Shown in pieces: positions 576 through 64,000 of a stretch of DNA of 64,000 nucleotides (positions are counted from its first letter, which is position 1; every line of letters starts with the position of its first letter). The translations under genes were made by a program, and so were the position numbers. The notes beneath the pieces were generated by a model, which did not search any database, was not told the DNA's origin, and saw nothing but the letters and a program-made list of their open reading frames with translations. Source of the DNA: Rubrivivax sp. (GTDB lineage Bacteria; Pseudomonadota; Gammaproteobacteria; Burkholderiales; Burkholderiaceae_C); the NCBI GenBank assembly GCA_004210455.1, contig SEFA01000013.1, positions 1 through 64,000 of the forward strand, in the 5' to 3' direction.

Positions 576-1652
576 TCAGTTCTCGAAACGGTCCATCAGG
601 GCGTCATCGAGCGGGAAGATATCTATGCCGGCGTCCAGTCCTGCGACCCAGTCGCGGTGGTAGAAGCGCGCCTTCTGCCGAGCGGTCGGATCGGTCGAAT
701 AGGTTGGATTCTCGGCAAGTGAATATTCGCCGCAGTGGTACTTGTGCCAGTACAGGTCCACCTGCTCCTTGTCAATGACGATGAAGTGGTTGAGCAGCGC
801 CTGATAGTAATTGCGCATCGACACCGCGCTGTCCGCCTTGATCTTCTCCAAATACTTCCGGTGCAGGTAAATCTCTCCGATGTTGGCCTCGGAAACGTCG
901 CGCGACGTAAGCTTCCTGGACGAGAACTGCTTGGTCGACATGTGGCGCTCGTCCAGCTCCGCGAACCACATGTCCTTCATGTCGCTGATGTGTCCGAACT
1001 GGAACATGTCGCACATCGAATAAGGGCGATAGCGGCAGATGTTCATGCTCAGCTCCACGATCCGATGCTTTTGGTGCTCGGAGCGGGAGGGGTACTGGTG
1101 GAGCTGCGCGATCAGGTAATGGTCGAGGTTGGCGGCGTAGACGCGCTGGTCCGACCGGGTCTTCAGCACATACTGGCAGCCCAGCGCTTCAAGCCGTTCG
1201 ATGCCGGCCCGTGTGGACACCAACTGGTAGTTCGTCGTGCCTAGGCCGCTGGTCTTGGGCGGCACGCTCTTGACCACATGCAGGCGCGCGTTGCGGTGAA
1301 TCTCGTGTTGGCCAAGGTCCTCGTTCTGCCACGTGGAGATGACCACGTGGGCGGTCGGGAAGGTCCGCAGATACAGGGCGGCGGTTTCCATCGTGAAGTC
1401 GGCTTCGCGCAGCAGTGGACCTTGAATGACGATGCCGATCATGCCGTCCGTCGGGACCGGCGCGACCGGGTCCAGCCCCACGGCCGCCGCCCGCTGGGGG
1501 CGCGTGTGGTACGTGTAGAACCGCTCGCTGGAATTCTTGCGAAGCGCGAAGAGGAATCGGTTGACCAGCCGCTCCACCACGGCGCCATCGCGCGCCACGG
1601 TGTTTAAGAAGCGGTCCGTCCACTTAAGCGCGAGGGAGCGTGCCTTGCTCAT
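576..1652 (-). CDS. WavE-family LPS/polysaccharide biosynthesis protein
   Basis: 358 aa, soluble. The order of motifs ([11 protein letters not shown] near residue 70, [11 protein letters not shown] near 103, then [10 protein letters not shown] near 160) matches the WavE family, named after a Vibrio cholerae LPS core gene. The TRSDQ segment looks like the metal/nucleotide-binding acidic motif of a GT-A-type glycosyltransferase; that part is inference. The start at 1652 overlaps the end of the flippase gene by 29 bp, so translation is probably coupled. The role is likely transfer or modification of a sugar in the cytoplasmic assembly of the polysaccharide made by this operon. Confidence 0.8.
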
Positions 1653-3117
1653 GTCGGCGATCCAAGAAGAGGGTGATCAAGGCCAGGCCGATCAGGCCCG
1701 ATGAAAGAAGGAGGCCCAGGACGCCCCCTGCCAAGGCCTCCGCCCGGCCCGCTAGCGCGATCAGCGCCACGAGCAGGGCGGAGATCGCGTGCTGGCGAAG
1801 ATAGGCCAGCACAGGCAGCCCGAAGGTCCGCAGCGTCTGCCGGGTGTTCCAGTAATGGCAGGTGAGCAACTGCGCGACCAGACAGGCCAGCGCCACGCCG
1901 CAGAATCCGAACCAGCGAATGAAAGGCGTGTATGCGACGACCGTGAGCACAGCCGATAGGACCGTCACCCGCCAAAAGTTCACATAGCCGGTGGAGACCA
2001 GCGAAGTCGTGAGCGTCGTCTGCTGGATCTCGAACCAGATAGCGACCAAGTACAGCAGTAAGAAGCGGGTGTCGAAAGGAACGTGCTTGCCAAGCCACAG
2101 CTGGAAGATCTGCTCGTGGAAGACGAAGACGGTCGCGAGCGCGCCCGAGGAGAGCACGGAGACGATGCGCACGTTCCTGATCAGGCCGGCGTTGCTTCCC
2201 TCCCCACCGCTGCGGGCGAAGTACTCGTCCGCGATCCTCTTAACGAGCAAGGAGGTGGGGATCGAGCACAGCAGGGTCACACCCATGGAAATTTGGGCGG
2301 CGAGACCGATCTGCACGGTCAGGGCGGCACCGAAGTCATGGGCCACGCGGTACGGAAGGATGTTGTAGATGAACATGCCCGGCAGTGCCGCGACCAAGAA
2401 TTTGCCCGACGTGCCTAGCACCTCCCTGGACAGCGAGGCCGAGAAGAGCGTGCGGTCGAAGAGCGGTGTGATGCGCCTCGAGATGTGGCGGGCGGCGATG
2501 GTCAGCACGAACGTTGACGAGATCAGCCAGCTCCACGGCATGGCGAAGACCGAATAGCCGTGCGACAACAGGAAGGGCATCGGCGCCACTGCGGCGATGC
2601 TGCCAACAGTCTTGAGCGTCTTCTCCATCGGGATGTGCCCTGCGGCGAAGATGATGCCCAGCAGCACGTTCTGCGCCACCCGGCAGGCGATCGCGACGAT
2701 GAGCAGCATTGCCAGCGTGCCAACCTCCGCCGCGGAGAACCAGCGCCCGCCAATCCACGGAACGATGAGCGCGGCCAACGCGGCCACGGCCGCGATCGTG
2801 CCCATGGCCGTCTGGAAGAAGGTGGCCACGTACTCACGGACGCGGCGCGGTTCTCCCGCTTGGCCGTAATAGGACATCTTGCCCGGCACGATGGAATACG
2901 CGCCCAGGTCCAGCAGCATGCAGAAGGGCAGGGCCCCCAGCATCAGGAACCAGAGCTGCAACTCCTCGGCGGAGAGGTTCCTCGCGCCGAGCCGGCTCGT
3001 GATTAAGCCCGTGAGCACCATGGACACCGCGCTCGTCGTCGAGATGGCGAGCGCCCACGACCGCTTCCCGAAGACGATGGCGAATAGCGGCGCCCATCGG
3101 CGAGTCCCCATGATCAA
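1624..3117 (-). CDS. Polysaccharide flippase-like membrane protein (Wzx/MATE-type)
   Basis: 497 aa and strongly hydrophobic throughout, with about 12-14 predicted membrane spans. Its size and layout fit the oligosaccharide flippase (Wzx/MurJ-like) superfamily; typical Wzx proteins are 400-500 aa. It would move undecaprenyl-linked repeat units across the inner membrane. ATG 3111 is an alternative start two codons in. It follows the nucleotidyltransferase-HAD gene after a 39-bp gap and overlaps the WavE-like gene. Sequence identity among flippases is low, so the assignment rests on hydropathy, length and context. An O-antigen polymerase is less likely because no large periplasmic loop is evident. 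Confidence 0.7.
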   Translation of the reverse strand: MIMGTRRWAPLFAIVFGKRSWALAISTTSAVSMVLTGLITSRLGARNLSAEELQLWFLMLGALPFCMLLDLGAYSIVPGKMSYYGQAGEPRRVREYVATFFQTAMGTIAAVAALAALIVPWIGGRWFSAAEVGTLAMLLIVAIACRVAQNVLLGIIFAAGHIPMEKTLKTVGSIAAVAPMPFLLSHGYSVFAMPWSWLISSTFVLTIAARHISRRITPLFDRTLFSASLSREVLGTSGKFLVAALPGMFIYNILPYRVAHDFGAALTVQIGLAAQISMGVTLLCSIPTSLLVKRIADEYFARSGGEGSNAGLIRNVRIVSVLSSGALATVFVFHEQIFQLWLGKHVPFDTRFLLLYLVAIWFEIQQTTLTTSLVSTGYVNFWRVTVLSAVLTVVAYTPFIRWFGFCGVALACLVAQLLTCHYWNTRQTLRTFGLPVLAYLRQHAISALLVALIALAGRAEALAGGVLGLLLSSGLIGLALITLFLDRRHEQGTLPRA

Positions 3118-3156
3118 GCGCGCTTCCCGCGTTGCCTGCGCATCCAGCCGGCCATG

Positions 3157-4212
3157 TTAGCTGCCGAGGGAATCGAGGATCGACGACAGCATCTTGCCGT
3201 CCCGTTCCACATTCACCGACATGGCGGTCGGATAGGGGTTGGTCGGCGAGTAGTCATTGACGAGGATGCGGCGCGTGTGCGGCAGGCCCATCACGTAACG
3301 ATCCGGATGGACCTCGAATTCGGCCAGACGGATGCGCAGATAATCAATCTCCGATTCCGGACGGCTGGACGTGATGATCAGGTACAGCAGGCCGGATTTC
3401 TGCATCCGGGCGATGGTCTGAAGGTTCTCGGAGATCGGTTCGGTATCCCATCCTTTCTTGCCGAACTTGCTGCCGTTGTAGAGCAGCACGCCGTCGACGT
3501 CGCAGAACAGGGTCAGGAAGGAGCGCGTGTAATGGCGATATTCGCGCAGCGTGCCCCAGTCGATGTAGCCGTCCGCCTTGCTGATACGGAAACTCTCCTC
3601 GCCCATCAGCATGCTGTAGATCACATGCGAGATGTAGACCTCCTGCTGGCTTTTGATGGAGCGGAAGTGGGTCAGAAACTCTTCCGCGCTCCGGAAGCCG
3701 TAGCCGCCGCAGCAGAAGAAATTGCTGATGACTTGCTTCTCGACGATGTTGGAGATGTTGCCGAGCGCATCGACGTTGACGTAGCTCTTGTTCTTCGCGT
3801 CGATCAGGCCGACGCTATTCAGATCCAGCACGGCGACTTCGTTGCCGCCCTGCCAGCGGACCCGGAACATGTTGTCGCAGTCCTTCACGAAGAAGGCCCC
3901 GTCGATCCTCGCGCGCTCCAGGGCCAGCGCGACGGTTTCGGATTGCGAGGAGGTGGGCTCCTCCAACACGCACAGGTCGACCTTTGAGTGACCGATGCCC
4001 GCCAGGACGGTGGCGAGCGACTCCGGTGTCAGATAGGCATCAAGGTGCTCGCGCAGGCAGACCACGACCACGCGGTCGTAGTCGCTCATGTCAAGGCTCT
4101 CGACCGCCTTCTCCAGCATCAGCTTGCCGTCGGGCATGGTGAGCAGCCACTTGGGGCGCATGCTGGGGAAGCGAGAGGAGCGGCCGGCGACGGGCAGGAT
4201 CAGCGTTTTCAT
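3157..4212 (-). CDS. Fused sugar-nucleotidyltransferase and HAD-like phosphatase
   Basis: 351 aa with two domains. Residues 1-230 are an NTP-transferase: the nucleotide loop LPVAGRSSRF at 6-15, P20-K21, a metal-binding DCD at 111-113, and YIDWGT at 217-222, common near the end of this fold. Residues 233-351 resemble a HAD phosphatase: motif I CDVDGVLLYNG (D238, D240) and motif-II-like ITSSRPES. The HAD half is short and its late acidic motif is weak (VNDYSP). A single protein could activate a phosphorylated precursor and also remove phosphate in the same pathway. The gene is 4 bp downstream of the SDR gene. The substrate is unknown; the kinase in the same operon suggests a phosphorylated sugar or polyol. 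Confidence 0.75.
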   Translation of the reverse strand: MKTLILPVAGRSSRFPSMRPKWLLTMPDGKLMLEKAVESLDMSDYDRVVVVCLREHLDAYLTPESLATVLAGIGHSKVDLCVLEEPTSSQSETVALALERARIDGAFFVKDCDNMFRVRWQGGNEVAVLDLNSVGLIDAKNKSYVNVDALGNISNIVEKQVISNFFCCGGYGFRSAEEFLTHFRSIKSQQEVYISHVIYSMLMGEESFRISKADGYIDWGTLREYRHYTRSFLTLFCDVDGVLLYNGSKFGKKGWDTEPISENLQTIARMQKSGLLYLIITSSRPESEIDYLRIRLAEFEVHPDRYVMGLPHTRRILVNDYSPTNPYPTAMSVNVERDGKMLSSILDSLGS

Positions 4213-33613: not shown

Positions 33614-34459
33614 TCAAGCGGATGAGGTGCCAAACGGACGCATCCCGGATGCGGGTACGGGATTCTGCTGCATCCAGGTCAACGCCTTGACATCCTCCAG
33701 CACGGCTCTCAGGAAGGCAGCATCCCAGGAGTTTTTTCCCATTGGTCCGATCGTGGATTGCAGCTCCCTTTCAATATCTTGGCGGAGGCTGTCGACGCTC
33801 GCGCAGTGAACGGCCTTGCCTCGCCAAAGCGTCCATTTTGCCGACAATGTTTCGTTGAAACGTTCTTCATTGATACAAGTCGAGATCTGCTTCGTGACGC
33901 GCTGGAGAACATCACCCTTCAAGTGGCCAAGGGCTGCCGGGGTGAAGGTCACGCTAATATAGGGCGGCTCAATGTTGGCTGTGAGAAGAGCTTCGTTGTA
34001 GGCTGGTCCGTCGAAATAGGGGTGAATCAGCGGCACAACGGTACCTGGTCCATTGGCGTGACGCCCACGCTTGGAATTGCAGGTGACACAGGAAGGAATC
34101 AGGTTCCAGCTGAAGACGGTGAATTCGGCAAACGAGGACCGGGGTAGATAATGTTCGAGCGAGGTGGGCCCCGCGTTGCCACAAAGGGGGCAATGGCTCA
34201 ACCCTTTGGCAGCGCGATAAGTCGTGATCCATTGCAGGCCGTCGCGCTTGCGAGCAGCGCGATACCAACCTTCCAGCTCGGTGCAAATGGGTTCGGCAAG
34301 TCCAAGCGGGGCTAGCACTCTGGGGTCGCCGGACTTCGCTTTGTATTTCTCGTAGCACTCATAGATGTCGGAGACATGGGGGTCGCAAAGAGATGAATTG
34401 CTAGCCAGAAGTTGAAGGGCAAGTTCGTCATCGACCGGGGTTGGAATGAGCGTGCGCAT
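33614..34459 (-). CDS. HNH endonuclease, PtuB-like (Septu-type module)
   Basis: 281 aa. The zinc/HNH core is CPLCG (C90, C93), LEHYLP (E102, H103), NLIP (N119) and CVTCNSKRG (C124, C127, N128). It lies 6 bp downstream of an ABC-type ATPase gene on the same strand. ATPase plus HNH nuclease in this order is the layout of the Septu anti-phage system (PtuA-PtuB), in which the nuclease is the effector. Base composition is visibly richer in A/T than the flanking housekeeping genes. Standalone homing-type HNH is less likely because of the tight pairing. Confidence 0.75.
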   Translation of the reverse strand: MRTLIPTPVDDELALQLLASNSSLCDPHVSDIYECYEKYKAKSGDPRVLAPLGLAEPICTELEGWYRAARKRDGLQWITTYRAAKGLSHCPLCGNAGPTSLEHYLPRSSFAEFTVFSWNLIPSCVTCNSKRGRHANGPGTVVPLIHPYFDGPAYNEALLTANIEPPYISVTFTPAALGHLKGDVLQRVTKQISTCINEERFNETLSAKWTLWRGKAVHCASVDSLRQDIERELQSTIGPMGKNSWDAAFLRAVLEDVKALTWMQQNPVPASGMRPFGTSSA

Positions 34460-34465
34460 CGAGGT

Positions 34466-36241
34466 TCAATCCTGACTGATGTTGCCGCCGAGCTTCATCA
34501 GCATTGCTATCCTGGACAACATTTCCGGGCTCAGCACTTGAGCGTAGCGCTCGATGACTTTTTCAAGCGGCAGACCTTCTTTGACGACCTGATTGGCAAT
34601 TGCTAGGTGAAACTTCTTTGCAGTGGCGTCTCCAAATACTGCCTGGGAGATGTTGTCGACACTGGCGCCGAGCGTGCGGAGATAGACTTCATTCTCCATG
34701 GGGCCGTCGTCTTCGACGGTGTAGACGTGCGTGCAGTGAGTCGGAACCTCACGCACCACATAAGCGGAGTGAGTGGCAATCAGCGCAATGGATTTTGTTG
34801 CGGTGAGAACCCCATACAGCAAGGTCATGAAGTCACACACCAGATTGGGATGTAAGTGCGTCTCTGGCTCGTCAAGAATGACGAGGGTGCCTTCGTCGAT
34901 GTAGCTCAGGAAGTTGACCGCGAATCTGAAGAAGACCCGGTGCCCGGAGCTGAGCTCGATCCATTCGTCATGGGATCGGAATCTCACTTCCCGCTCGAAA
35001 TCCACAGCCGCCAACACGGTCAACTGTTGCTTCTCGCCACGTGATTGAATTTTCTGAAGACTGATCCAGTACTCACCATCATCTTCAAGAACGCCAGAAA
35101 GCGTCTTGGCGGATGGGGTGAGAGGAATCATCGTGCTCGCACCGATGTGCTGGGTCAGTGCCGTGGTCAGCAAGGTCAAACGACTCTTCTCTTCCGGTCC
35201 CAGCCCATCCGTGCTTCTGAAGATGTCGATTAGCAGGCGAGTCGCGTTGTTTGGCTGCGTCGGCAAAGCGGCCGTTGAAATCGACGCTCGTTGAGCGTCT
35301 CCATTGCGATCGTTCAGATTCGCGAACACGTATTCAAACGAAGCCTCGGGACGCGTATTCGCCGGGAAGCTGGATCCGCCATCAAAAGAGAAGCAGAGCA
35401 CCCTGCGGAAGTTCGGACCTTCAAAGGTGGATGCCTCGCGCGTCGACGAAGGCGTGCTGTTGAAGCTTGTTCCAGTATCAATGTTTTCTGTGCGGCGCCC
35501 CAGTTCGAGAACGAGTTCTCGCAGCAGTCGTGTCTTCCCGCAGCCGTTCTTTCCTATCAGGCAGTGGATTCGATCATCGATGACCGAAGAGTCGCCCTTG
35601 AGGAACGTTCCAGTGAACGTGTGCGGACCTCCCTGGAATCCATTGAGATGACAGCAGAAGCGGAAGTCCTGCTTGGCGTCTTCCAGCAGTTCTGGCGGGT
35701 TCGCGAGCAGATAGCGGCCGCCTCGATGCAGGGCCTGATAAGCGGAGCCTCGGCGCATGAAGCCCAGGGAAAAGCCCTCGGAGCGCATGAGCGCGCTCGA
35801 TGTCTCTTTGTCGAGGAGATCGATCTCCGTCAAGCTCAACAGCTCATTGAAAGCCGCGAGTATCTGGCGGCGCTCGGCCTGATCGGCGACAAGCGCCGCG
35901 AGGTCACGATAAGCGTTGGCACCTTGGAGCAGAGTGATGAAGCGAGGACGCCCTGCCTCGTCCAAAGGGGAGATCGAGGCGGCTGGTTCTTTGGCGGGAA
36001 TCATGGTGTCCAGCCATGATGCAAAGCTGTATCCGGACGGCGCGATCTTTGTCCAGTCGATCGGCATGACCAATGCACGGCGGACAAACGGTTCGCTTTG
36101 ATTCGGTAGCTGAATGCTCAGCAGCGCGTGGTAGTTGTGGCTGAAATCGTTCCAGTTGATGTCCGTGGGCGTCAATGTGACTGACGGTTCATTGGGATTG
36201 AAGCTTTTGCCGGGACGGGCGAGATAGAGTGCAATGTCCAT
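34466..36241 (-). CDS. ABC/SMC-type ATPase, PtuA-like (Septu-type module)
   Basis: 591 aa. Walker A GKNGCGKT at 230-237, an ABC-signature-like LSSGHR at 430-435 (His where Glu is usual), Walker B VILDEPETHLHP at 454-465 and an H-loop THSAYVVRE near 490: the AAA15/OLD-like architecture of PtuA. The first 200 residues are an unrecognised domain rich in aromatic residues, longer than expected for a minimal PtuA. AGGGAG precedes the start by 5 bp. Base composition is AT-richer than neighbours, suggesting acquisition by transfer. Shares its upstream region with the divergent SWIM operon. Confidence 0.75.
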   Translation of the reverse strand: MDIALYLARPGKSFNPNEPSVTLTPTDINWNDFSHNYHALLSIQLPNQSEPFVRRALVMPIDWTKIAPSGYSFASWLDTMIPAKEPAASISPLDEAGRPRFITLLQGANAYRDLAALVADQAERRQILAAFNELLSLTEIDLLDKETSSALMRSEGFSLGFMRRGSAYQALHRGGRYLLANPPELLEDAKQDFRFCCHLNGFQGGPHTFTGTFLKGDSSVIDDRIHCLIGKNGCGKTRLLRELVLELGRRTENIDTGTSFNSTPSSTREASTFEGPNFRRVLCFSFDGGSSFPANTRPEASFEYVFANLNDRNGDAQRASISTAALPTQPNNATRLLIDIFRSTDGLGPEEKSRLTLLTTALTQHIGASTMIPLTPSAKTLSGVLEDDGEYWISLQKIQSRGEKQQLTVLAAVDFEREVRFRSHDEWIELSSGHRVFFRFAVNFLSYIDEGTLVILDEPETHLHPNLVCDFMTLLYGVLTATKSIALIATHSAYVVREVPTHCTHVYTVEDDGPMENEVYLRTLGASVDNISQAVFGDATAKKFHLAIANQVVKEGLPLEKVIERYAQVLSPEMLSRIAMLMKLGGNISQD

Positions 36242-36389
36242 GTCGACTCCCTTTTCATCTTTATTCTTGAACGCCCAGTCTATGGGCTGATCGGATGCCG
36301 ACCGGGCTTGTCTGTTCGATCAGTGGCTCGCACCGGCTAGACTCACGTTGGTAGTCACCCACAACGATTCGATCAGGGAGCGGGCCAGC
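36242..36389. promoter_or_regulatory. Divergent region between the Septu-like module and the SWIM operon
   Basis: 148 bp that must carry both promoters. Seen: GCCCA-GTCTA-TGGGC (36273-36287), the direct repeat TTCGATCAG (36315-36323 and 36368-36376), TAGACT at 36338-36343 as a possible -10 for the plus strand, and AGGGAG ribosome sites for both genes. No strong -35 was found. Confidence 0.4.
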
Positions 36390-37802
36390 ATGACGCTGAC
36401 CATGGAGGGCGTGCTGGCGCTGGCGCCGGACGAGGCATCGGCGAAGGCCGCGCGAGGGCTGACCTCGCCGGCCAAATGGCCGTTGCTCGGCGCCGATGAC
36501 GCCGCCGTCTGGGGCGAATGCCAGGGCAGCGGCTCCAAGCCTTACCAGACGCAGGTCGACCTCAGCGGTCCCGCCTTCCGCTGCTCCTGTCCCAGTCGGA
36601 AATTCCCCTGCAAGCACGGCCTCGCGCTGCTGATGCTGAGGGCGCAGGACGCCTCCCGCTTCGCCGCCGCGGAGCCCCCCGCCTGGGTCGCCGAATGGAT
36701 CGCTTCACGCGGCGAACGCGCGCAGAAGAAGGAAGAGCGCGACCAGAAGGCCGTCGAGCGCGCGACCGAGCGCGCCGCGCAGATCGCCGACGGCGTCGAT
36801 CCCGCGCAGGCGGCGTCGGCGCTTGCCGATCCCGACAACGCGCTCAAGCGCGAGTCGCAACGGTGGCGTCGCATCGAGGAAGCGTCCGCTGAACTGCAGC
36901 GCTGGCTCGGCGATCAGATCGGTCGCGGACTCGGCGCGCTCGACGACGCGGCGATCCGCGGCTGGCGCACGATGGCGGCGCGCATGGTGGATGCCCAGGC
37001 GCCCGGCCTCGGCCAGCGCATCGCCGCCGCCGCGGACGGATGGCGCGTCGGCGCCGACTGGCCGGAACGCACGCTCTCACGCCTCGGTCTGCTGCAGCTC
37101 GCCTGCGAGGGCCTCGCCCGTCGCGAGACGTTGCCGGAGCCCGTTCAAGCCGATCTGCGCACCGTCTGCGGCTGGCCGCTCGACCAGGCCGAGGTGCTCG
37201 CGGCCGGGGAGCGCGTCGCCGACCGCTGGGCGGTCCTCGGTGTGATCGTCGAGGAGCGCGAAGGCCGCCTGAATGAGCGCCGCGTCTGGCTGCACGGCGA
37301 GCGCTCGGGCCGGCGCGCGTGGCTGCTCGATCACGCGCACGGCGGCCGTGGTTTCGAAGGCATGTGGCTGCCCGGCATCGCCGCGGATCTGACGCTCGCC
37401 TTCTATCCCGGCAACGCCCCGCTGCGCGCACTGATCGCCGACGCTTCGCCACCGCCGGAGCCCGAGGGTTCCGTCAACACGGTGCGTCTTGCCGGATCCG
37501 AATCCTGGCAGGACGAATGGCAGCGCGTGGCCGAACGCGTGGCCGCCCATCCCTTCGCGATGCTGCATCCGGTCGTGCTCGCGAACGCGACGCCGGTCGC
37601 CGCCGATGCCGGCCCCCATCTGACCGCCGATCACCGCGCCGTGCCGCTGCTGGTTGGTGATGCCGACTGGTGGTCGCTGATGGCCGTCGCCGGCGGTCAT
37701 CCACTCGCCGTCATGGGCGAATGGGACGGCCGTGCGTTGCGCCCGCTCACCGCCTGGCAGTCTGGAACGAAGGGCCCCGTGTGGTCGAGGAGTGCCGCAT
37801 GA
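36390..37802 (+). CDS. SWIM zinc-finger protein, first gene of a five-gene operon
   Basis: 470 aa from ATG 36390, with AGGGAG 9 bp upstream. The SWIM motif is complete: C65-x-C67...C74-x-H76 in FRCSCPSRKFPCKHGLAL. A charged helical segment follows (about residues 105-140), then a large C-terminal part without a recognised domain. SWIM fingers bind DNA or proteins. Overlaps the next gene by ATGA. I recall SWIM, DUF5691, MoxR, DUF5682 and VWA genes occurring together in diverse bacteria without an established function. Confidence 0.8.
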   Translation: MTLTMEGVLALAPDEASAKAARGLTSPAKWPLLGADDAAVWGECQGSGSKPYQTQVDLSGPAFRCSCPSRKFPCKHGLALLMLRAQDASRFAAAEPPAWVAEWIASRGERAQKKEERDQKAVERATERAAQIADGVDPAQAASALADPDNALKRESQRWRRIEEASAELQRWLGDQIGRGLGALDDAAIRGWRTMAARMVDAQAPGLGQRIAAAADGWRVGADWPERTLSRLGLLQLACEGLARRETLPEPVQADLRTVCGWPLDQAEVLAAGERVADRWAVLGVIVEEREGRLNERRVWLHGERSGRRAWLLDHAHGGRGFEGMWLPGIAADLTLAFYPGNAPLRALIADASPPPEPEGSVNTVRLAGSESWQDEWQRVAERVAAHPFAMLHPVVLANATPVAADAGPHLTADHRAVPLLVGDADWWSLMAVAGGHPLAVMGEWDGRALRPLTAWQSGTKGPVWSRSAA

Positions 37803-39424
37803 GCGCCTGGAAGCCGCTGCTGCCCGTGGCGATGGTGGGGACGGACCGACAGTCCGGTCCTCTGCCCGAATGGCCCGGTGAGATCGGCGCGCTCGTTGCA
37901 CAAGTCGGTCAAGTCGTGTCGCCCGGACAGGCTGCGCCTGGCACGCAGGCCGCGCCGCCCGCCAGTGTCGTCGAGGGACCGGCGGGTCAGGTCTTGCGCA
38001 CGATGGCCGTCATCGCGACTTGCGACGCCGCGGGCACGCAGGACCGCATCTGGACCGCACCGCCCACGGAACCTGCGGCCGTCGACCGTCTCGCGGTCGT
38101 TCCCGAGCGCCTCGATGGGATCGAGGGCGTCGCCGGCTCGCCGCGCACGCTATTGCGCTGGGCGCTGACCGAAGCGCCCACGCGACTTCAGCAGTTGGCG
38201 TTCGTGGCACTGGCCGAGGCGGATCTGCGCCTGCCCGAGATGCTGCTGCCGCTGGCGCTGGACGCCGGACGACGCGCCGTCGCACTGCGCGCGCCGTTGC
38301 TGCCGGTGCTCGGCGAGCGCGGGCTGTGGCTGGCGCGTCAGCGCGAGGACTGGCATTACGCCGCGGGTGCCGGCGGTGACGCGCCCGGCGAGACCCAGTG
38401 GACCGACGGCACGCTGGAGCAACGCCGTGCCTTCCTTGCCCGCGAGCGGGCCGCCGACGCCGCCGCGGGGCGACGACGCCTGGAGGCCGCGCTGACGGAA
38501 CTCTCCGCGAAGGAGCGCGCCGATCTGGTGGCACAACTGGCGGTCGGACTCGAGATGGACGACGAGTCGCTCCTCGATCGGCTGCGCGCCGACCGCAGCC
38601 GTGAGGTGCGCGACGTCGCGCTCGCCCTGCTGCTGCGCCTGCCCGATGCCGCCCATCCACGACGCGCCGTCGAGCGGCTCTCTCCGCTGCTGCGCCGCGA
38701 GCGCGCGCTGCTCCGCCAGCACTGGGTCATCGATGCGCCCGAAGCCGCGGGCGCCGACTGGGCGTCCGATCAGATCGTCATCGCGCGCTCGTCCACCGAG
38801 AAGCTCGGCGAACGCGCCTGGTGGCTCTATCAACTGGTGCGCCAGGTGCCGCTGGACTGGTGGACCACCACGACAGGGATGACGCCCGCCGAACTGCTCG
38901 GCTGGGCGATCAAGACCGATTGGGCCGACGCCCTGGTGCGCGGATGGTTCGACGTTCTCTCCGCGACGGGCGAGATCGACTGGTGCGAAGCCTTCCTCGA
39001 GACGCAGACCCCGCTGCAGACGCATCAGGCGGCGCAGGCGCTCCAATGGCTGCCGCAGGTCCGTCGCGAACGCCACTGGCTGCGACACCTGCAACAGGGC
39101 GCCTTGCCGCTGTCGGCGCTCGTCGCCGCGGCGAGCGGCGGCGAGACGCTCGGCGCGGAGCTCTCGCAGGCGATGACCGGCCAACTGCTGTCGCGCGCCC
39201 GCGCCGGGACGCTGAAGGACGACTACGCCGTCCGCGCGATGCTGGTCGACTTCGGCGCGGTCGTGCATGCCGACAGCCTCTCCGCCTACGCCTCGCTGGC
39301 CGACATCCGCGCCGCCGACGAAACCGCCGCCCACGCGGAGCAGCTGCAGGCCGTCGCGCAGACGGCCGCGCTGCGCCGCGCCCTGCTCGCCCTCTCACCC
39401 GATCCGACCCCGAGGACCTCATGA
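37799..39424 (+). CDS. DUF5691-family protein
   Basis: 541 aa from ATG 37799. Helix-rich with Leu/Arg-rich repeats (for example LRADRSREVRDVALALLLRL near residue 260) that look like HEAT-type helical pairs, and an N-terminal start MSAWKPLLPVAMVGTDR typical of DUF5691. It probably acts as a scaffold or adaptor in a complex with the MoxR ATPase. It overlaps both neighbours by ATGA. No catalytic motif was seen. Confidence 0.7.
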   Translation: MSAWKPLLPVAMVGTDRQSGPLPEWPGEIGALVAQVGQVVSPGQAAPGTQAAPPASVVEGPAGQVLRTMAVIATCDAAGTQDRIWTAPPTEPAAVDRLAVVPERLDGIEGVAGSPRTLLRWALTEAPTRLQQLAFVALAEADLRLPEMLLPLALDAGRRAVALRAPLLPVLGERGLWLARQREDWHYAAGAGGDAPGETQWTDGTLEQRRAFLARERAADAAAGRRRLEAALTELSAKERADLVAQLAVGLEMDDESLLDRLRADRSREVRDVALALLLRLPDAAHPRRAVERLSPLLRRERALLRQHWVIDAPEAAGADWASDQIVIARSSTEKLGERAWWLYQLVRQVPLDWWTTTTGMTPAELLGWAIKTDWADALVRGWFDVLSATGEIDWCEAFLETQTPLQTHQAAQALQWLPQVRRERHWLRHLQQGALPLSALVAAASGGETLGAELSQAMTGQLLSRARAGTLKDDYAVRAMLVDFGAVVHADSLSAYASLADIRAADETAAHAEQLQAVAQTAALRRALLALSPDPTPRTS

Positions 39425-40524
39425 CGACTTCCACCGAGACCGCCGCCTCGCACGTCCTGCGCCGCCATGCGGAGCACCAGTTCGCCGAGGAGCTCGCCGA
39501 GCTGAAGCGCCAGGACACGCGCACGCGTCCCGAGAACTGGGCGATGTCGCCCTGGGCGGTGCTGCGCTACCTGATGGGCGGGACGCTGGAGAACGGCTTC
39601 GAGGTCAGCGCCAAGTACATCGGCGACGAACGGCTGATGGAGATCGCCGTCGCCACGCTGGCGACCGACCGCGCGCTGCTGCTCTACGGCGTGCCGGGCA
39701 CCGCGAAGTCGTGGGTGTCGGAACACCTGTCGGCGGCCGTCAGCGGCGATTCGACGCTGCTGATCCAGGGCACCGCCGGCACCGGCGAGGAACAGCTGCG
39801 CTACGGCTGGAACTACGCGCAGCTGCTGGCCAACGGGCCCAGCGAGGCGGCGCTGGTGCCCAGTCCGATGATGAAGGCGATGCGCGACGGCAAGATCGCC
39901 CGCATCGAGGAACTGACCCGCATCCCCGCCGACGTGCAGGACTGCCTGATCACCGTGCTGTCGGAGAAGACGCTGCCGGTGCCCGAGCTGGGCTCGGAGG
40001 TGCAGGCCACGCGCGGCTTCAGCGTGATCGCGACGGCCAACAACCGCGACAAGGGCGTCAACGAGCTGTCCGCCGCGCTGAAGCGCCGCTTCAACACCGT
40101 GGTGCTGCCGGTGCCGGCCAGCGAGGACGCGGAGGTGTCCATCGTCGTCAAGCGCGTGGCCGAGCTGGGCGTGTCGCTGCAGCTGCCGGCCGAGCCGCCG
40201 GCGCTCAAGGAAGTGCGGCGCATCGTCCAGATCTTCCGCGAACTGCGCAACGGTCGGACCGAGGACGGCAAGACCCAGCTGAAGTCGCCCAGCGGCACGC
40301 TGTCGACGGCGGAGGCGATTTCCGTGATCAACAGCGGCATGGCGCTGGCCGGCCACTTCGGCGACGGCGTACTGCGCCCGCGCGATGTGGCCTCGGGCCT
40401 GCTCGGCGCGATCGTCAAGGATCCCGTGCAGGACCAGGTCGTCTGGAACGAATACCTGGAGACCGTCGTGAAGGAACGCACCGACTGGAAGGACCTGTAC
40501 CGCGCCTGCCGCGAGCAGTCCTGA
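39421..40524 (+). CDS. MoxR-family AAA+ ATPase
   Basis: 367 aa. Walker A GVPGTAKS at 90-97; the Walker B segment reads RIEEL (E163, E164) where most MoxR proteins have DE; sensor 1 IATANN near 203-208; arginine finger LKRRFN; sensor 2 region near 310. MoxR ATPases act as chaperones that remodel or activate partner complexes, usually with a VWA protein, which is encoded at 42904. Thirteen bp before the DUF5682 gene. Confidence 0.88.
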   Translation: MTTSTETAASHVLRRHAEHQFAEELAELKRQDTRTRPENWAMSPWAVLRYLMGGTLENGFEVSAKYIGDERLMEIAVATLATDRALLLYGVPGTAKSWVSEHLSAAVSGDSTLLIQGTAGTGEEQLRYGWNYAQLLANGPSEAALVPSPMMKAMRDGKIARIEELTRIPADVQDCLITVLSEKTLPVPELGSEVQATRGFSVIATANNRDKGVNELSAALKRRFNTVVLPVPASEDAEVSIVVKRVAELGVSLQLPAEPPALKEVRRIVQIFRELRNGRTEDGKTQLKSPSGTLSTAEAISVINSGMALAGHFGDGVLRPRDVASGLLGAIVKDPVQDQVVWNEYLETVVKERTDWKDLYRACREQS

Positions 40525-40537
40525 GGCGCGGGGCGCC

Positions 40538-42907
40538 ATGAGCGATCCGGTCCACTACTTCGGCGTGCGGCACCACGGCCCGGGCTGCGCGCGCAGCCTG
40601 CTCGCCGCCTTCGAGGCGCTGAAGCCCGACTGCGTGCTCATCGAGGGGCCGCCCGAAGCGGACGGCCTCGTCGCCGCCGTGCTCGATCCCGCGATGACGC
40701 CGCCGGTGGCGCTGCTCACGCACGGGGTCGAGGAATCCGGCCGCGCGGTCTATCACCCGTTCGCGAGCTTTTCGCCGGAGTGGCAGGCCTTGCGCTGGGC
40801 CGGACTTGCCGGCGTGCCGGTGCGGTTCATCGATCTGCCGGTCGGCGTCTCGCTTGCGTTGGAGAAGGCGGGGGAGGAAGAGGAACGGCAAGCCGCCGAG
40901 GCGCCCCAGGCCGATCAGACGGGTGAAGCGGGCGAAGCGGAACAGCCCACCGAGCCGTCGACGCGTCGCGGCGATCCGCTGGACTGGCTCGCCCGCGCGG
41001 CGGGTTACGCCGACGGCGAGACCTGGTGGAATCACATGGTCGAGGAGCGCGGCGACGGCGAGGACCTGTTCGCGGCGATCTCCGAGGCGATGACCACCCT
41101 GCGCGCCGAGTCCGGCGAGGACGACACGCTGGCTCCCCGCACGCCGCGCGCCCATCGCGAGGTGCTGCGGGAGGCCCACATGCGCCAGTGCATCCGCGCG
41201 GCGCGCAAGGAGGGCTTCGAGCGCATCGCGGTGGTCTGCGGCGCGTGGCACCTGGGCGGCCTGCGGGCGGACTTCACCGCGAAGGCGGACCAGGCACTGC
41301 TGAAGGGCGTGCCCAAGCTCAAGGTCACCAGCACGTGGGTGCCGTGGACGTATCGGCACCTCGCGCGCGCCAGCGGCTACGGCGCGGGCATCCACTCGCC
41401 GGGCTGGTACGAACACCTGTGGCTGAGCGGCCAGGAAAGCCAGGACAGCAAGGCAGGTCAAGAAGGCCAGGAGGGCAAGAGCGGCCACCCGGGTGGCGGG
41501 CGCCGTCCCCGCGCGATCGGCTGGCTGGCGCGCGTCGCGCGACTGATGCGCGAGCGCGATCTCGACTGCTCGTCCGCCCACCTGATCGAGGCGGCCCGGC
41601 TGGCCGACACGCTGGCCGCGCTGCGGCAACGGCCCGCGCCGGGCCTGGACGAGTTGCACGAAGCGACGCGCACCGTCATGACGCTGGGCGACGAGGCGGT
41701 GCTCGGTTTCATCCGCGACGAACTGGTCATCGGCGACCGCCTGGGTCGCGTGCCGGCGGACGTGCCCACGGTGCCGCTGCAGCGCAATCTCGAACAACTG
41801 CAGAAGTCGCTGCGCATGAAGCCGGAGGCGACGCAGAAGACGCTCGACCTCGACCTGCGCCAGCCCAACGACCTGGCGCGCAGCCACCTGCTGCACCGGC
41901 TGCGGCTGATCGACCTGCCGTGGGGCGAGATCGCGCGCACGGGCAAGTCCTCGCGCGGCACCTTCCACGAGGTCTGGACGCTGCAATGGCAGCCCGAGTT
42001 CGCGCTGCGCGTGATCGAGGCGAGCCGCTGGGGCCAGTCGGTCGCGCAGGCGGCGACGACCGCGGTGGCAGAGCGCTGCGGGCGGGCCACGCACCTGGCG
42101 GCGTTGGCTGAACTCGTCGATCGCGTGCTGCTGGCCGATCTGCCGGAGGCGGTGACGATCGCGTCGCGTGCGCTGCAGGACCACGCCGCGGTCACCGGCG
42201 ATGCCGATCAGCTGCTGGGCGCGCTGCCGCCGCTGGCCAACGTCTTCCGCTACGGCAACGTGCGGCAGACCGACGCGGCCCTGGTGGGCCATGTCTTCGA
42301 CGGCCTGGTGACGCGCGCGGCCATCAGCCTGCCGTTGATGGGCGATTCACTGGACGAGGCCGCGGCGGAACAGGTCCGCGACCGGGTGCTCGGCGCGCAG
42401 GCGGCGGTGGGGCTGCGGGATCCGGGCCGCCAGTCCGAGCCCTCGACGCAATGGCGCGCCGCGATCTCGCAACTGGCCGTCCGCGAAGGCGCGCACGCGC
42501 TGCTGCGCGGCCTGTGCACGCGATTGCTGCTGGACGACGCGCTGATCACGGCGGACGACGCGGGAACGGCGATGTCGCTGCAACTGTCGCGCGCCGCGGA
42601 ACCGGCCAAGGCCGCGGCGTGGCTGGACGGCTTCCTCAACCGCAATGCCGTCGTGCTGCTGCATCACGACGGCGTCTGGCCGCTGGTCGACGCCTGGCTG
42701 GCCGGGCTCGACGACGAGCATTTCATCCGCGTGCTGCCGCTGGTGCGACGCACCTTCGGGCACTTCGACGCGGGCGAGCGACGCGACCTCGGTCAACGCG
42801 CGGCGCGCAAGGGCGCCGGGGCCGCGATGGCCGCGGCGGAATGGGACGACGCGCGCGCGGCGCTGCCGCTGCCGCTGCTGCGATGGATGCTGGGAGTGGG
42901 GGCATGA
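40538..42907 (+). CDS. DUF5682-family protein, TraB/ChaN/EreA-like hydrolase candidate
   Basis: 789 aa. N-terminal motifs GVRHHGPG (about residues 9-16), VLIEGPPEADGL (33-44) and VVCGAWHLGGL (232-242) have the spacing His...Glu...GAxH seen in the TraB/TIKI/GumN and ChaN/EreA superfamily of putative metallohydrolases. A Gln/Glu/Ala-rich linker with KAGQEGQEGK (about residue 308) is followed by a long helical C-terminal half without recognised domains. In the operon it may be the enzymatic effector or a signal-processing hydrolase. Overlaps the VWA gene by ATGA. Confidence 0.65.
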   Translation: MSDPVHYFGVRHHGPGCARSLLAAFEALKPDCVLIEGPPEADGLVAAVLDPAMTPPVALLTHGVEESGRAVYHPFASFSPEWQALRWAGLAGVPVRFIDLPVGVSLALEKAGEEEERQAAEAPQADQTGEAGEAEQPTEPSTRRGDPLDWLARAAGYADGETWWNHMVEERGDGEDLFAAISEAMTTLRAESGEDDTLAPRTPRAHREVLREAHMRQCIRAARKEGFERIAVVCGAWHLGGLRADFTAKADQALLKGVPKLKVTSTWVPWTYRHLARASGYGAGIHSPGWYEHLWLSGQESQDSKAGQEGQEGKSGHPGGGRRPRAIGWLARVARLMRERDLDCSSAHLIEAARLADTLAALRQRPAPGLDELHEATRTVMTLGDEAVLGFIRDELVIGDRLGRVPADVPTVPLQRNLEQLQKSLRMKPEATQKTLDLDLRQPNDLARSHLLHRLRLIDLPWGEIARTGKSSRGTFHEVWTLQWQPEFALRVIEASRWGQSVAQAATTAVAERCGRATHLAALAELVDRVLLADLPEAVTIASRALQDHAAVTGDADQLLGALPPLANVFRYGNVRQTDAALVGHVFDGLVTRAAISLPLMGDSLDEAAAEQVRDRVLGAQAAVGLRDPGRQSEPSTQWRAAISQLAVREGAHALLRGLCTRLLLDDALITADDAGTAMSLQLSRAAEPAKAAAWLDGFLNRNAVVLLHHDGVWPLVDAWLAGLDDEHFIRVLPLVRRTFGHFDAGERRDLGQRAARKGAGAAMAAAEWDDARAALPLPLLRWMLGVGA

Positions 42908-44127
42908 GCGCGCCAGACGACTTGACGGATCCGGCGGCCACTGTGAGCGGTCCCGCGACGACGACCGATGCGGATCGCCTGCGCCGCTGGCGCCTGGTGC
43001 TCGGCGGCGAAGCCGAAGACAGCTGCGGCGGCCTGCACGGCGACGCGGTGGAGATGGACCAGGCGCTGAGCGCGCTCTACGGCGACGGCGGTGGCCTGGG
43101 CGACGACCGGCGCGGCGGACGCGGCAACTCCGCGCCGCGCGTGGCGCGATGGCTGGGCGACATCCGCAAGTACTTCCCGAGTTCCGTCGTTCAGGTGATG
43201 CAGAAGGACGCGCTGGAGCGCCTGAACCTGCGCGACATGCTGCTGCAGCCGGAGATGCTGCAGGGCGTGCAGCCCGACGTCCATCTGGTCGCGAACCTCA
43301 TGGCCCTGTCCCGGGTGATCCCGGCGGGCACGAAGGACACGGCCCGCCGCGTCGTGCGGCAGGTCGTCGACGAGTTGATGAAGCGCCTGGAGGAGCCGAT
43401 GCGCGCGGCCGTGACCGGCGCGCTGGACCGCAGCCAGCGTAACCGCCGCCCGAGGCTGGCGGAGATCGACTGGCACCGCACCATCCGCGCCAACCTGCGT
43501 CACTGGCAGCCGGAGCTCCGCACGGTGGTGCCCGAGACGCTGCACGGCTACGGGCGCAAGGCGCGACGTCCGCAGCGCGAGGTGGTGCTCTGCATCGACC
43601 AGAGCGGGTCGATGGCGAACTCGGTGGTGTACTCGAGCATCTTCGGCGCGGTGCTCGCCTCGCTGCCTGCAGTCAGCACCAGGCTGGTCGTCTTCGACAC
43701 GGCGGTGGTCGACATGACGGAGCAGCTCGACGATCCGGTCGATCTGCTGTTCGGCGTGCAACTGGGCGGCGGCACCGACATCAACGGCGCGGTGGCCTAT
43801 TGCCAGTCCCTGATCCGAGAGCCGCGCAACACGATCTTCGTGCTCATCTCCGATCTGTACGAAGGCGGCGTCGAGCCGCAACTGCTGCGACGCGCGGCGG
43901 CGCTGGTCGAGAGCGGCGTGCAGTGCGTGGCCCTGCTGGCGCTGAGCGACGAAGGCGCGCCGGCCTACGACCGCGCGCTCGCGGCCAAGCTGGCGGCGCT
44001 GGGCGTGCCGTCCTTCGCATGCACGCCGGACGCTTTCCCAGGCCTGATGGCCGCGGCGATCCGGCGCGACGACATTGGCGCGTGGGCGGCAGCGCAGGGG
44101 ATCGTCACGGCGGCCAAGGGCGTCTGA
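42904..44127 (+). CDS. VWA (von Willebrand factor A) domain protein
   Basis: 407 aa. The MIDAS metal site is complete: D232-Q-S-G-S-M, then GGGTDING (T291) and a third Asp in LISDLYEGG. Residues 1-225 are a helical domain typical of VWA partners of MoxR ATPases. Cytoplasmic; no signal peptide or membrane segment. Last gene of the five-gene operon; it ends 7 bp from the convergent DJ-1 gene. Confidence 0.88.
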   Translation: MSAPDDLTDPAATVSGPATTTDADRLRRWRLVLGGEAEDSCGGLHGDAVEMDQALSALYGDGGGLGDDRRGGRGNSAPRVARWLGDIRKYFPSSVVQVMQKDALERLNLRDMLLQPEMLQGVQPDVHLVANLMALSRVIPAGTKDTARRVVRQVVDELMKRLEEPMRAAVTGALDRSQRNRRPRLAEIDWHRTIRANLRHWQPELRTVVPETLHGYGRKARRPQREVVLCIDQSGSMANSVVYSSIFGAVLASLPAVSTRLVVFDTAVVDMTEQLDDPVDLLFGVQLGGGTDINGAVAYCQSLIREPRNTIFVLISDLYEGGVEPQLLRRAAALVESGVQCVALLALSDEGAPAYDRALAAKLAALGVPSFACTPDAFPGLMAAAIRRDDIGAWAAAQGIVTAAKGV

Positions 44128-63347: not shown

Positions 63348-64000
63348 ATGAACACTGCCTTCCGAGGCGCCGCGCTGGCGCTCCTTACGATGCTGGTCGC
63401 CGCGTGCGCGTCGACGACGACGGACGCGACGGACGCAACGGCCGCGGCGCCGGCCTCGTCCAAGGTCGAGCCTGAATTCGTCCTGCTCGGCGAGCTGCAC
63501 GACAACCCCGACCACCATCGCGCCCGCGCGGAACAGCTGCGACGGCTGATCGCGCAGCAGCCGAGGACGGTGGTGGTGTTCGAGCAGTTCTCGCGCAGCG
63601 AGGACGCCGCCGTGGCGACGGCGCGCAAGACGGCGCCGGGCGACGTGAACGCGCTGATCGACGCCGCGAAGTTCGACCGCAAGGGCTGGCGCTGGCCGCT
63701 GCATCAACCGCTGTTCGAGGCCGCGCTGCAATCCGGCGCGGAGGTCCGTGGCGGCAACATCGATCGCGACCAGATCCGGAAGATCGTCCGCGAGGGCGAC
63801 GCCGCCTGGCCGGCCGACCTGCTCGCGCTGCGCGATCGCGCGGCGTGGAACGACACGCAGCAGGACAGGCTGCGCCAGGACATCCAGGACGGCCACTGCG
63901 GCGCGATGCCGGAAGCGATGTTGCCCGGCATGGTGCAGGCGCAACGCGCGCGCGACGCCGCCATGGCGCAGGCAATGCTTGACGCGCGGAAGTCGGGGGC
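63348..64000 (+). CDS. ChaN-family lipoprotein (partial, 3' end cut by window)
   Basis: 217 codons visible. Signal sequence with lipobox LVAAC (Cys near residue 20). Motifs VLLGELHDNPDHH, VVVFEQFSR and GGNIDRDQIR match ChaN, an iron-regulated, haem-binding outer-membrane lipoprotein family related to EreA/TraB hydrolases. 113 bp after sppA; no clear promoter seen. Confidence 0.85.
   Translation, partial: MNTAFRGAALALLTMLVAACASTTTDATDATAAAPASSKVEPEFVLLGELHDNPDHHRARAEQLRRLIAQQPRTVVVFEQFSRSEDAAVATARKTAPGDVNALIDAAKFDRKGWRWPLHQPLFEAALQSGAEVRGGNIDRDQIRKIVREGDAAWPADLLALRDRAAWNDTQQDRLRQDIQDGHCGAMPEAMLPGMVQAQRARDAAMAQAMLDARKSG

Follow-up and report, generated by a model that had tools for sequence, protein, structure and literature searches.

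Several bacterial chaperone systems pair an ATPase of the MoxR type (AAA+) with a partner carrying a VWA domain and its metal ion-dependent adhesion site (MIDAS), and excerpts of PMC9976466 name NorQ-NorD, CbbQ-CbbO and RavA-ViaA among them. For NorQD, excerpts describe how the VWA partner enters the AAA+ pore and how the client receives its metal only with the help of the MIDAS (PMC13036017, PMC9976466). An excerpt of a further study lists YehL among the named MoxR subfamilies (PMC3893208), and no function for the yeh genes was found in the literature searched, where the matches followed up are only gene lists or the name of the subfamily. Here we describe a five-gene operon at 36390-44127 in a 64,000-nucleotide stretch of Rubrivivax sp. 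DNA (GenBank assembly GCA_004210455.1, contig SEFA01000013.1, positions 1 to 64,000 of the forward strand; hereafter the window), which encodes a SWIM zinc-finger protein, a DUF5691 protein, a MoxR ATPase, a DUF5682 protein and a VWA_CoxE protein. By homology, it is a DUF5691-bearing variant of the YehL-type MoxR locus, of which the Escherichia coli type has DUF4132. Neither 'DUF5682' nor 'DUF5691' occurs in the literature searched, nor does 'MoxR' together with 'SWIM domain'; judged by its sequence, the operon belongs to a kind that is already known, though uncharacterised, and the DUF5691 version is a new variant of it.

The operon and its YehL-type core

The genes and their main motifs are arranged as follows.

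36390-37802, forward strand: SWIM zinc-finger gene, 470 residues (Pfam PF04434, E 2.5e-05)
36582-36617, forward strand: SWIM finger ligands C65/C67/C74/H76
37799-39424, forward strand: DUF5691 gene, 541 residues (Pfam PF18944, E 4.7e-115)
39421-40524, forward strand: MoxR AAA+ ATPase gene, YehL type, 367 residues (Pfam AAA_5, E 5.3e-37)
39688-39711, forward strand: Walker A motif of MoxR, G90-S97
40538-42907, forward strand: DUF5682 gene, 789 residues (Pfam PF18934, E 7.8e-257)
40538-41392, forward strand: probable TIKI/TraB-like domain of DUF5682, about residues 1-285
42904-44127, forward strand: VWA_CoxE gene, 407 residues (Pfam PF05762, E 6.1e-53)
43597-43611, forward strand: MIDAS of the VWA protein, D232xS234xS236, completed by T291 and D317

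Coordinates and Pfam matches confirm the five genes outlined in the initial annotation, with ATGA overlaps at 37799, 39421 and 42904 and a spacer of 13 base pairs between MoxR and DUF5682 (40525-40537), and a co-expressed unit, as that annotation expected when it proposed that the products are made together, is supported. The locus is regarded as a version of the YehL type because its MoxR, DUF5682 and VWA proteins are homologous to YehL, YehM and YehP. Measured in a database of seven proteins, MoxR is 41% identical to YehL (241 bits, vs 21.9 bits for RavA), the VWA protein is 38% identical to YehP (246 bits, vs 23.1 bits for ViaA) and DUF5682 is 26% identical to YehM (114 bits), its gene lying between those of MoxR and the VWA protein as in E. 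coli. The best NorQ match of MoxR reaches 28.1 bits. In the alignment of 82 VWA proteins, MIDAS residues D232, S234, S236 and D317 are invariant and T291 is kept in 96%; the AAA+ motif residues of MoxR are conserved likewise, which supports these two proteins as a candidate chaperone pair.

The E. coli type was followed through 12 loci (E. coli, Agrobacterium and ten more genomes). A DUF4132 gene adjoins the core in 11 of them, the contig of the twelfth stopping just past DUF5682; the VWA gene is present in 10/12, a SWIM-motif gene follows it in 6/12, and DUF5691 occurs in 0/12. Since MoxR and DUF5682 are kept together in 12/12 of these loci, all without DUF5691, MoxR-DUF5682(-VWA) is the core, and the scaffold is exchanged between the two types. 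One locus of the second type (L166) has three consecutive DUF4132-type frames upstream of the MoxR-DUF5682-VWA core. Within E. coli, the yehL-yehQ stretch is found at a coverage of at least 80% in 5,162 of 5,426 genomes and with some match in 5,301. An excerpt on Deinococcus reports a DUF4132 gene that is induced upon depletion of the repressor DdrO (PMC8533742).

Within the genus, the two leading genes of the operon have diverged further than MoxR and VWA (identities of 57-95% for SWIM and 47-83% for DUF5691 vs 88-98% for MoxR). All four ligands of the SWIM finger predicted initially are kept in 75/75 aligned SWIM proteins. DUF5691, which had been taken for a repeat-like scaffold, does look like a solenoid of the HEAT/ARM type: its profile matches designed alphaRep/HEAT proteins (best E 1.4e-4), and its AlphaFold2 model, with a predicted local distance difference test (pLDDT) of 88.4, is all-helical but for one hairpin and retrieves HEAT/ARM proteins in Foldseek, at template modelling scores below 0.3 and with a best E of 6e-4 to an engineered protein. 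The alignments used for folding drew on all but 15 of the 67 DUF5691 references and all but 15 of the 78 usable DUF5682 references. SWIM and DUF5691 may well work together, because three loci (L005, L062, L107) clearly have them fused as a single frame; in two further loci (L010, L051) a fusion is possible, the matched ranges overlapping. The SWIM protein shares the finger with YehQ, with a BLAST E of 5.7, no hidden Markov model match and a profile match at the finger alone (probability 7.2). Kinship between DUF5691 and DUF4132 was also considered and rejected, no similarity being detectable (probability 1.3).

The N-terminal domain of DUF5682

The AlphaFold2 model of DUF5682 (pLDDT 90.3, predicted template modelling score 0.87) is alpha/beta to about residue 285 and helical over the rest. 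Candidate active-site residues are conserved among 82 sequences (H12 in 81; E36, D99, R211 and H238 each in all 82), and H12, E36, D99 and H238 each directly follow a predicted strand. A profile of residues 1-320, made from 82 sequences of both types, was aligned by hhalign with a TraB/GumN profile of 43 domains over about 200 columns, with a probability of 78.6 and a score of 43.6, vs scores of at most 25.5 for 200 column-shuffled profiles and 20.9 for the reversed profile. As a yardstick, the accepted TraB-ChaN pair gave a probability of 65.4 and a score of 37.9 under identical settings, whereas no more than 0.3 was reached by four unrelated families; the TraB and ChaN sets were freed of three TraB loci that are incomplete or disrupted (L129-L131) and of two partial ChaN loci (L141, L150). 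H12 aligns with the GxxH histidine of TraB, E36 with its glutamate, R211 and M215 with the R..M motif and H238 with the final histidine, and by eye the strand order of the model fits the TIKI fold. Excerpts on the TIKI proteins describe shared His/Glu catalytic residues and a metal dependence that holds for Tiki and not for all members (PMC6254334).

Several results weigh against this kinship. The second type alone reaches a probability of 21.3 against TraB, so that the match depends on a profile in which the two types are combined, and the DUF5691 type alone gives 0.6 against a smaller set of 14 TraB sequences. Direct kinship of DUF5682 with ChaN or with Ere was rejected as not significant (probabilities 4.2 and 0.3). 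With the whole chain of the model, the 50 Foldseek matches listed are weak ones to solenoids and include no entry of the TIKI fold; no TraB is listed by Pfam at E up to 10, and a sequence search of the PDB gave nothing relevant and no TIKI member. The comparison of TraB with the Ere family also failed (probability 0.3), which means that genuine relatives this far apart escape the set-up. On balance, these sequence comparisons make the N-terminal domain of DUF5682 a probable, not a proven, member of the TIKI/TraB family and a predicted hydrolase, in line with the large candidate hydrolase that the initial annotation had placed in the operon and that the profile similarity to TraB now supports. 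This hydrolase assignment is new here, as is the solenoid assignment of DUF5691.

In Roseateles chitinivorans, the DUF5682 gene is split over two open frames (L035, 10016-12358). The window itself also holds, by chance, a ChaN-like gene of the TIKI superfamily on the forward strand (63474-64000, continuing to contig position 64067; PF04187, E 1.6e-42).

Recurrence and genomic setting of the cassette

A scan for DUF5682 with one genome per species yielded at least 588 relatives, and the locus counts are based on the best 80 loci among them. Of these 80 loci, 66 hold all five families on one strand and in the order seen here, and 63 of the 66 complete sets span at most 8.5 kb; because DUF5682 was the only bait and the other four genes accompany it in this order and on this strand, the arrangement is more than chance. 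The complete sets fall under twelve phylum-level labels, namely Pseudomonadota, Bacteroidota, Cyanobacteriota, Chloroflexota, Planctomycetota, Melainabacteria, Thermomicrobiota, Verrucomicrobiota, Thermodesulfobacteriota, Armatimonadota, Deinococcota and Acidobacteriota, several of the carriers being metagenome bins. The initial annotation had described the association as present, uncharacterised, in other genomes, and the notion that it does not extend beyond close relatives is refuted, since the five families recur together far beyond them. The five genes are a self-contained cassette. Near the 80 copies no conserved flanking genes were found, except DUF4132 just downstream in five Chitinophagaceae loci (27-84 base pairs), and other recurrent neighbour families lie at varying distances. 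Counted with ATG, GTG and TTG starts, four-base start/stop overlaps occur at the successive junctions in 33/70, 27/78, 2/81 and 42/81 measurable loci.

Contig ends cut eight of the 14 incomplete loci (L052, L056, L058, L064, L082, L087, L105, L109), although L052 and L058 are also without a VWA match where the downstream sequence continues. The other six are real departures. Four of them count against the activase model proposed below, as DUF5682 has flanks and no detected partner in L059, L101 and L111, and L094 is without SWIM and DUF5691; in the remaining two, the VWA gene stands first (L076) or SWIM-DUF5691 is inverted (L106). In a Variovorax locus, a TPR-containing gene of 784 residues is inserted between MoxR and DUF5682 (L039, 7605-9959).

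The DUF5682 tree suggests transfer, because phylum labels mix in it, although some contigs in the bins may be foreign. One starred group of Proteobacteria, for example, contains a Verrucomicrobiota row and a Thermodesulfobacteriota row, and for eight Chloroflexota rows the starred branches imply five changes or more. DUF5682 is sparse over the Pseudomonadota (14/398 genomes), and copies of the cassette are present on plasmids as well. In one plasmid copy, from Methylosinus, the VWA gene is interrupted, its parts lying in three different frames (L007, 11232-12400), and the other four genes are open. A single-sequence query found no relative in viral contigs, and among 50,697 phage records there was one match, an unverified 14-kb faecal 'phage' scaffold (L227, MT835988.1; DUF5682 gene at 1450-3564) which may be bacterial DNA.

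Closer to the window, DUF5682 is present in 13 of 16 Roseateles genomes and DUF5691 in 12, each time beside a DUF5682; one genome (G014) has only a DUF5682 locus of the other type and another (G001) has both types. Six of the 12 operon-bearing genomes, window included, share the same genomic site, downstream of a pair of genes, one acpS-like and one nagZ-like. Around the operon in the other six, none of the window flanking genes tested was found. Between the pair and the operon, the window has a two-gene candidate defence module:

33614-36241, reverse strand: PDC-M01A/PDC-M01B (Septu-like) module (PADLOC models, E 8e-76 and 5e-43)

From the placement beside this module, the initial annotation had suggested a role in conflict or stress. 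The module has no match in 5/5 other Roseateles genomes that carry the operon at this site, and its third-position guanine-cytosine content is 0.63-0.67 vs 0.84-0.90 for SWIM, DUF5691 and DUF5682. It looks like a separate insertion and an incidental neighbour; membership of the operon in it was rejected on its presence in 0/5 same-site relatives, and the operon is probably not part of the adjacent antiviral genes. A PADLOC scan (E 1e-10) set 120 of the 240 genes within 2 kb of the 80 cassettes against 120 of the 189 genes at 4.5 kb or more. The near set matched 40 families with 1-2 member matches each, the names among the 25 listed (mad2, Orf5, AbiEii, HEC-06, mREase_IV, mad3 and SspE) making up about eight member matches; the far set matched 13 families (PDC-S03, mad2, mad3, mad8, Cas3 types, HmaC, DEDDh and AriA), with at most about 11. 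In this small test, with 25 of the 40 near families listed, matches are not visibly commoner close to the cassettes, which excludes only strong enrichment, because families and not proteins were counted and the list of near families is partial. The five operon proteins themselves match no PADLOC family beyond weak AAA+ matches. Neither the Septu-like neighbour nor proximity to defence genes thus lends weight to the conflict reading, and the opposing picture drawn in the initial annotation, an operon general in the genus and unlinked to accessory regions, largely applies, with the operon in 12/16 Roseateles genomes and its E. coli relative near-core; a conflict role of the operon is not supported.

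Upstream of the operon, six Roseateles regions could be aligned, in which two elements are conserved:

36337-36344, forward strand: CTAGACTC, the most upstream conserved block before the operon, a possible promoter element
36374-36389, forward strand: leader CAGGGAGCGGGCCAGC, with the ribosome-binding site GGGAG at 36376-36380

A leader, CAGGGAGCGGGCCAGCATG, is present in the six loci, window included; the start of the SWIM gene at 36390 fits it and the GGGAG site, and is supported because motif and leader are conserved in all six. TAGACT is kept farther upstream of the leader, beyond which the six sequences diverge. Rfam and tRNA scans of the window gave no match.

Proposed mechanism and comparison with known systems

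Building on the computed gene order, homologies, conserved motifs and probable distant TraB relationship, we infer a complex with the following mode of action, which we favour tentatively and credit with a little under an even chance: a YehL-type MoxR-VWA activase that has its own client, DUF5682, and a targeting scaffold of SWIM and DUF5691. The MoxR protein would form an AAA+ ring on which the VWA_CoxE protein docks, as NorD does on NorQ, its MIDAS site gripping the client. DUF5682 would present a TIKI/TraB-type hydrolase domain, probably a peptidase or esterase, on a long helical platform, with the GxxH histidine H12, E36 and the C-terminal histidine H238 as its putative active site, and ATP-driven remodelling might open this site or load its metal. 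A sub-complex of the SWIM protein with the DUF5691 solenoid would bring the substrate; in the E. coli type, a DUF4132 protein would replace DUF5691 and a different SWIM protein the SWIM gene product. A further formulation, for which our confidence is somewhat lower, at about one in three, sees an ATP-regulated machine in which the MoxR ring and a VWA clamp gate a TIKI/TraB-fold peptidase served by exchangeable scaffolds, either SWIM-DUF5691 or DUF4132-SWIM.

The same homologies and the HEAT-like scaffold also fit a reading in which MoxR-VWA and SWIM-DUF5691 remodel an outside client, such as a nucleoprotein or a metalloenzyme, which DUF5682 as a peptidase then trims or removes, and the DUF4132 proteins with WGR or HEAT matches in the second type suggest binding of a further target. 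This alternative is rather unlikely, as no client-like neighbour recurs (the sole near-adjacent recurrent family is the DUF4132 of the five Chitinophagaceae loci) and neither type separates MoxR from DUF5682. Quite improbable in our estimate is a metal or cofactor delivery device in which the N-terminal domain of DUF5682 binds its ligand without hydrolysis, as ChaN does haem. MoxR-VWA pairs commonly serve metal insertion, according to an excerpt of PMC13036017, but the three positions (His, Glu and His) are retained throughout, as they would be in an enzyme, and a haem or metal ligand was not identified; the contrast of GxxH in DUF5682 and TraB/Tiki with GExH in ChaN sequences is counted on the side of delivery.

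We give a similarly low probability to a role in conflict or phage defence, with the DUF5682 hydrolase as a toxic effector that MoxR-VWA would activate, in the manner of the MoxR-vWA ternary systems. The patchy occurrence over the Pseudomonadota, the mixed phyla in the tree, the plasmid copies, the faster divergence of SWIM and DUF5691 within the genus and the PDC-M01 module next door would all suit it. Against these stand the absence of that module from the same-site relatives, the PADLOC results for the five proteins and for the surroundings of the 80 cassettes, and the wide presence of the E. coli type. Moreover, the bpMoxR model scores 23.3 bits on the window MoxR, below its cut-off of 27, and no variable effector domain was found on the VWA protein, where only VWA matches are above the cut-off.

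If the formulation as an ATP-regulated hydrolase machine is true, a MoxR-VWA system with a TIKI-family client would extend from E. coli yehLMPQ to the cyanobacteria, and DUF5682, DUF5691 and the yeh genes would gain a function at once. A hydrolase client would be added to the MoxR-VWA chaperones, so far known mainly for metalloenzyme maturation and activation, and the predicted active site of DUF5682/YehM, together with a clear core and exchangeable scaffolds, makes an orphan E. coli operon testable.

Among the described systems, the MoxR-vWA ternary conflict systems likewise combine a MoxR and vWA core pair with other components (excerpts of PMC7159879), but no VMAP, iSTAND, FtsH or beta-propeller component was identified in the operon. 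NorQ-NorD, CbbQ-CbbO and RavA-ViaA share its ATPase and MIDAS-bearing partner; unlike them, the window MoxR is of another subfamily (RavA 21.9 and best NorQ 28.1 bits, as above), no nor, cbb or frd client lies near the operon, and a SWIM protein, a solenoid and a predicted hydrolase are added. With the TIKI/TraB/PrgY superfamily, DUF5682 has in common the collinear GxxH histidine, glutamate, final histidine and R..M motif over about 200 columns, and it differs in that its domain contains additional helices and is followed by some 450 helical residues at the C-terminal end, and in its place in a MoxR-VWA operon. The closest likeness is to E. coli yehL-yehM-yehP-yehQ (with yehI), which has homologous MoxR, DUF5682 and VWA_CoxE genes in the same order and a SWIM protein as well, but carries DUF4132 proteins instead of DUF5691 and has its SWIM protein, YehQ, last.

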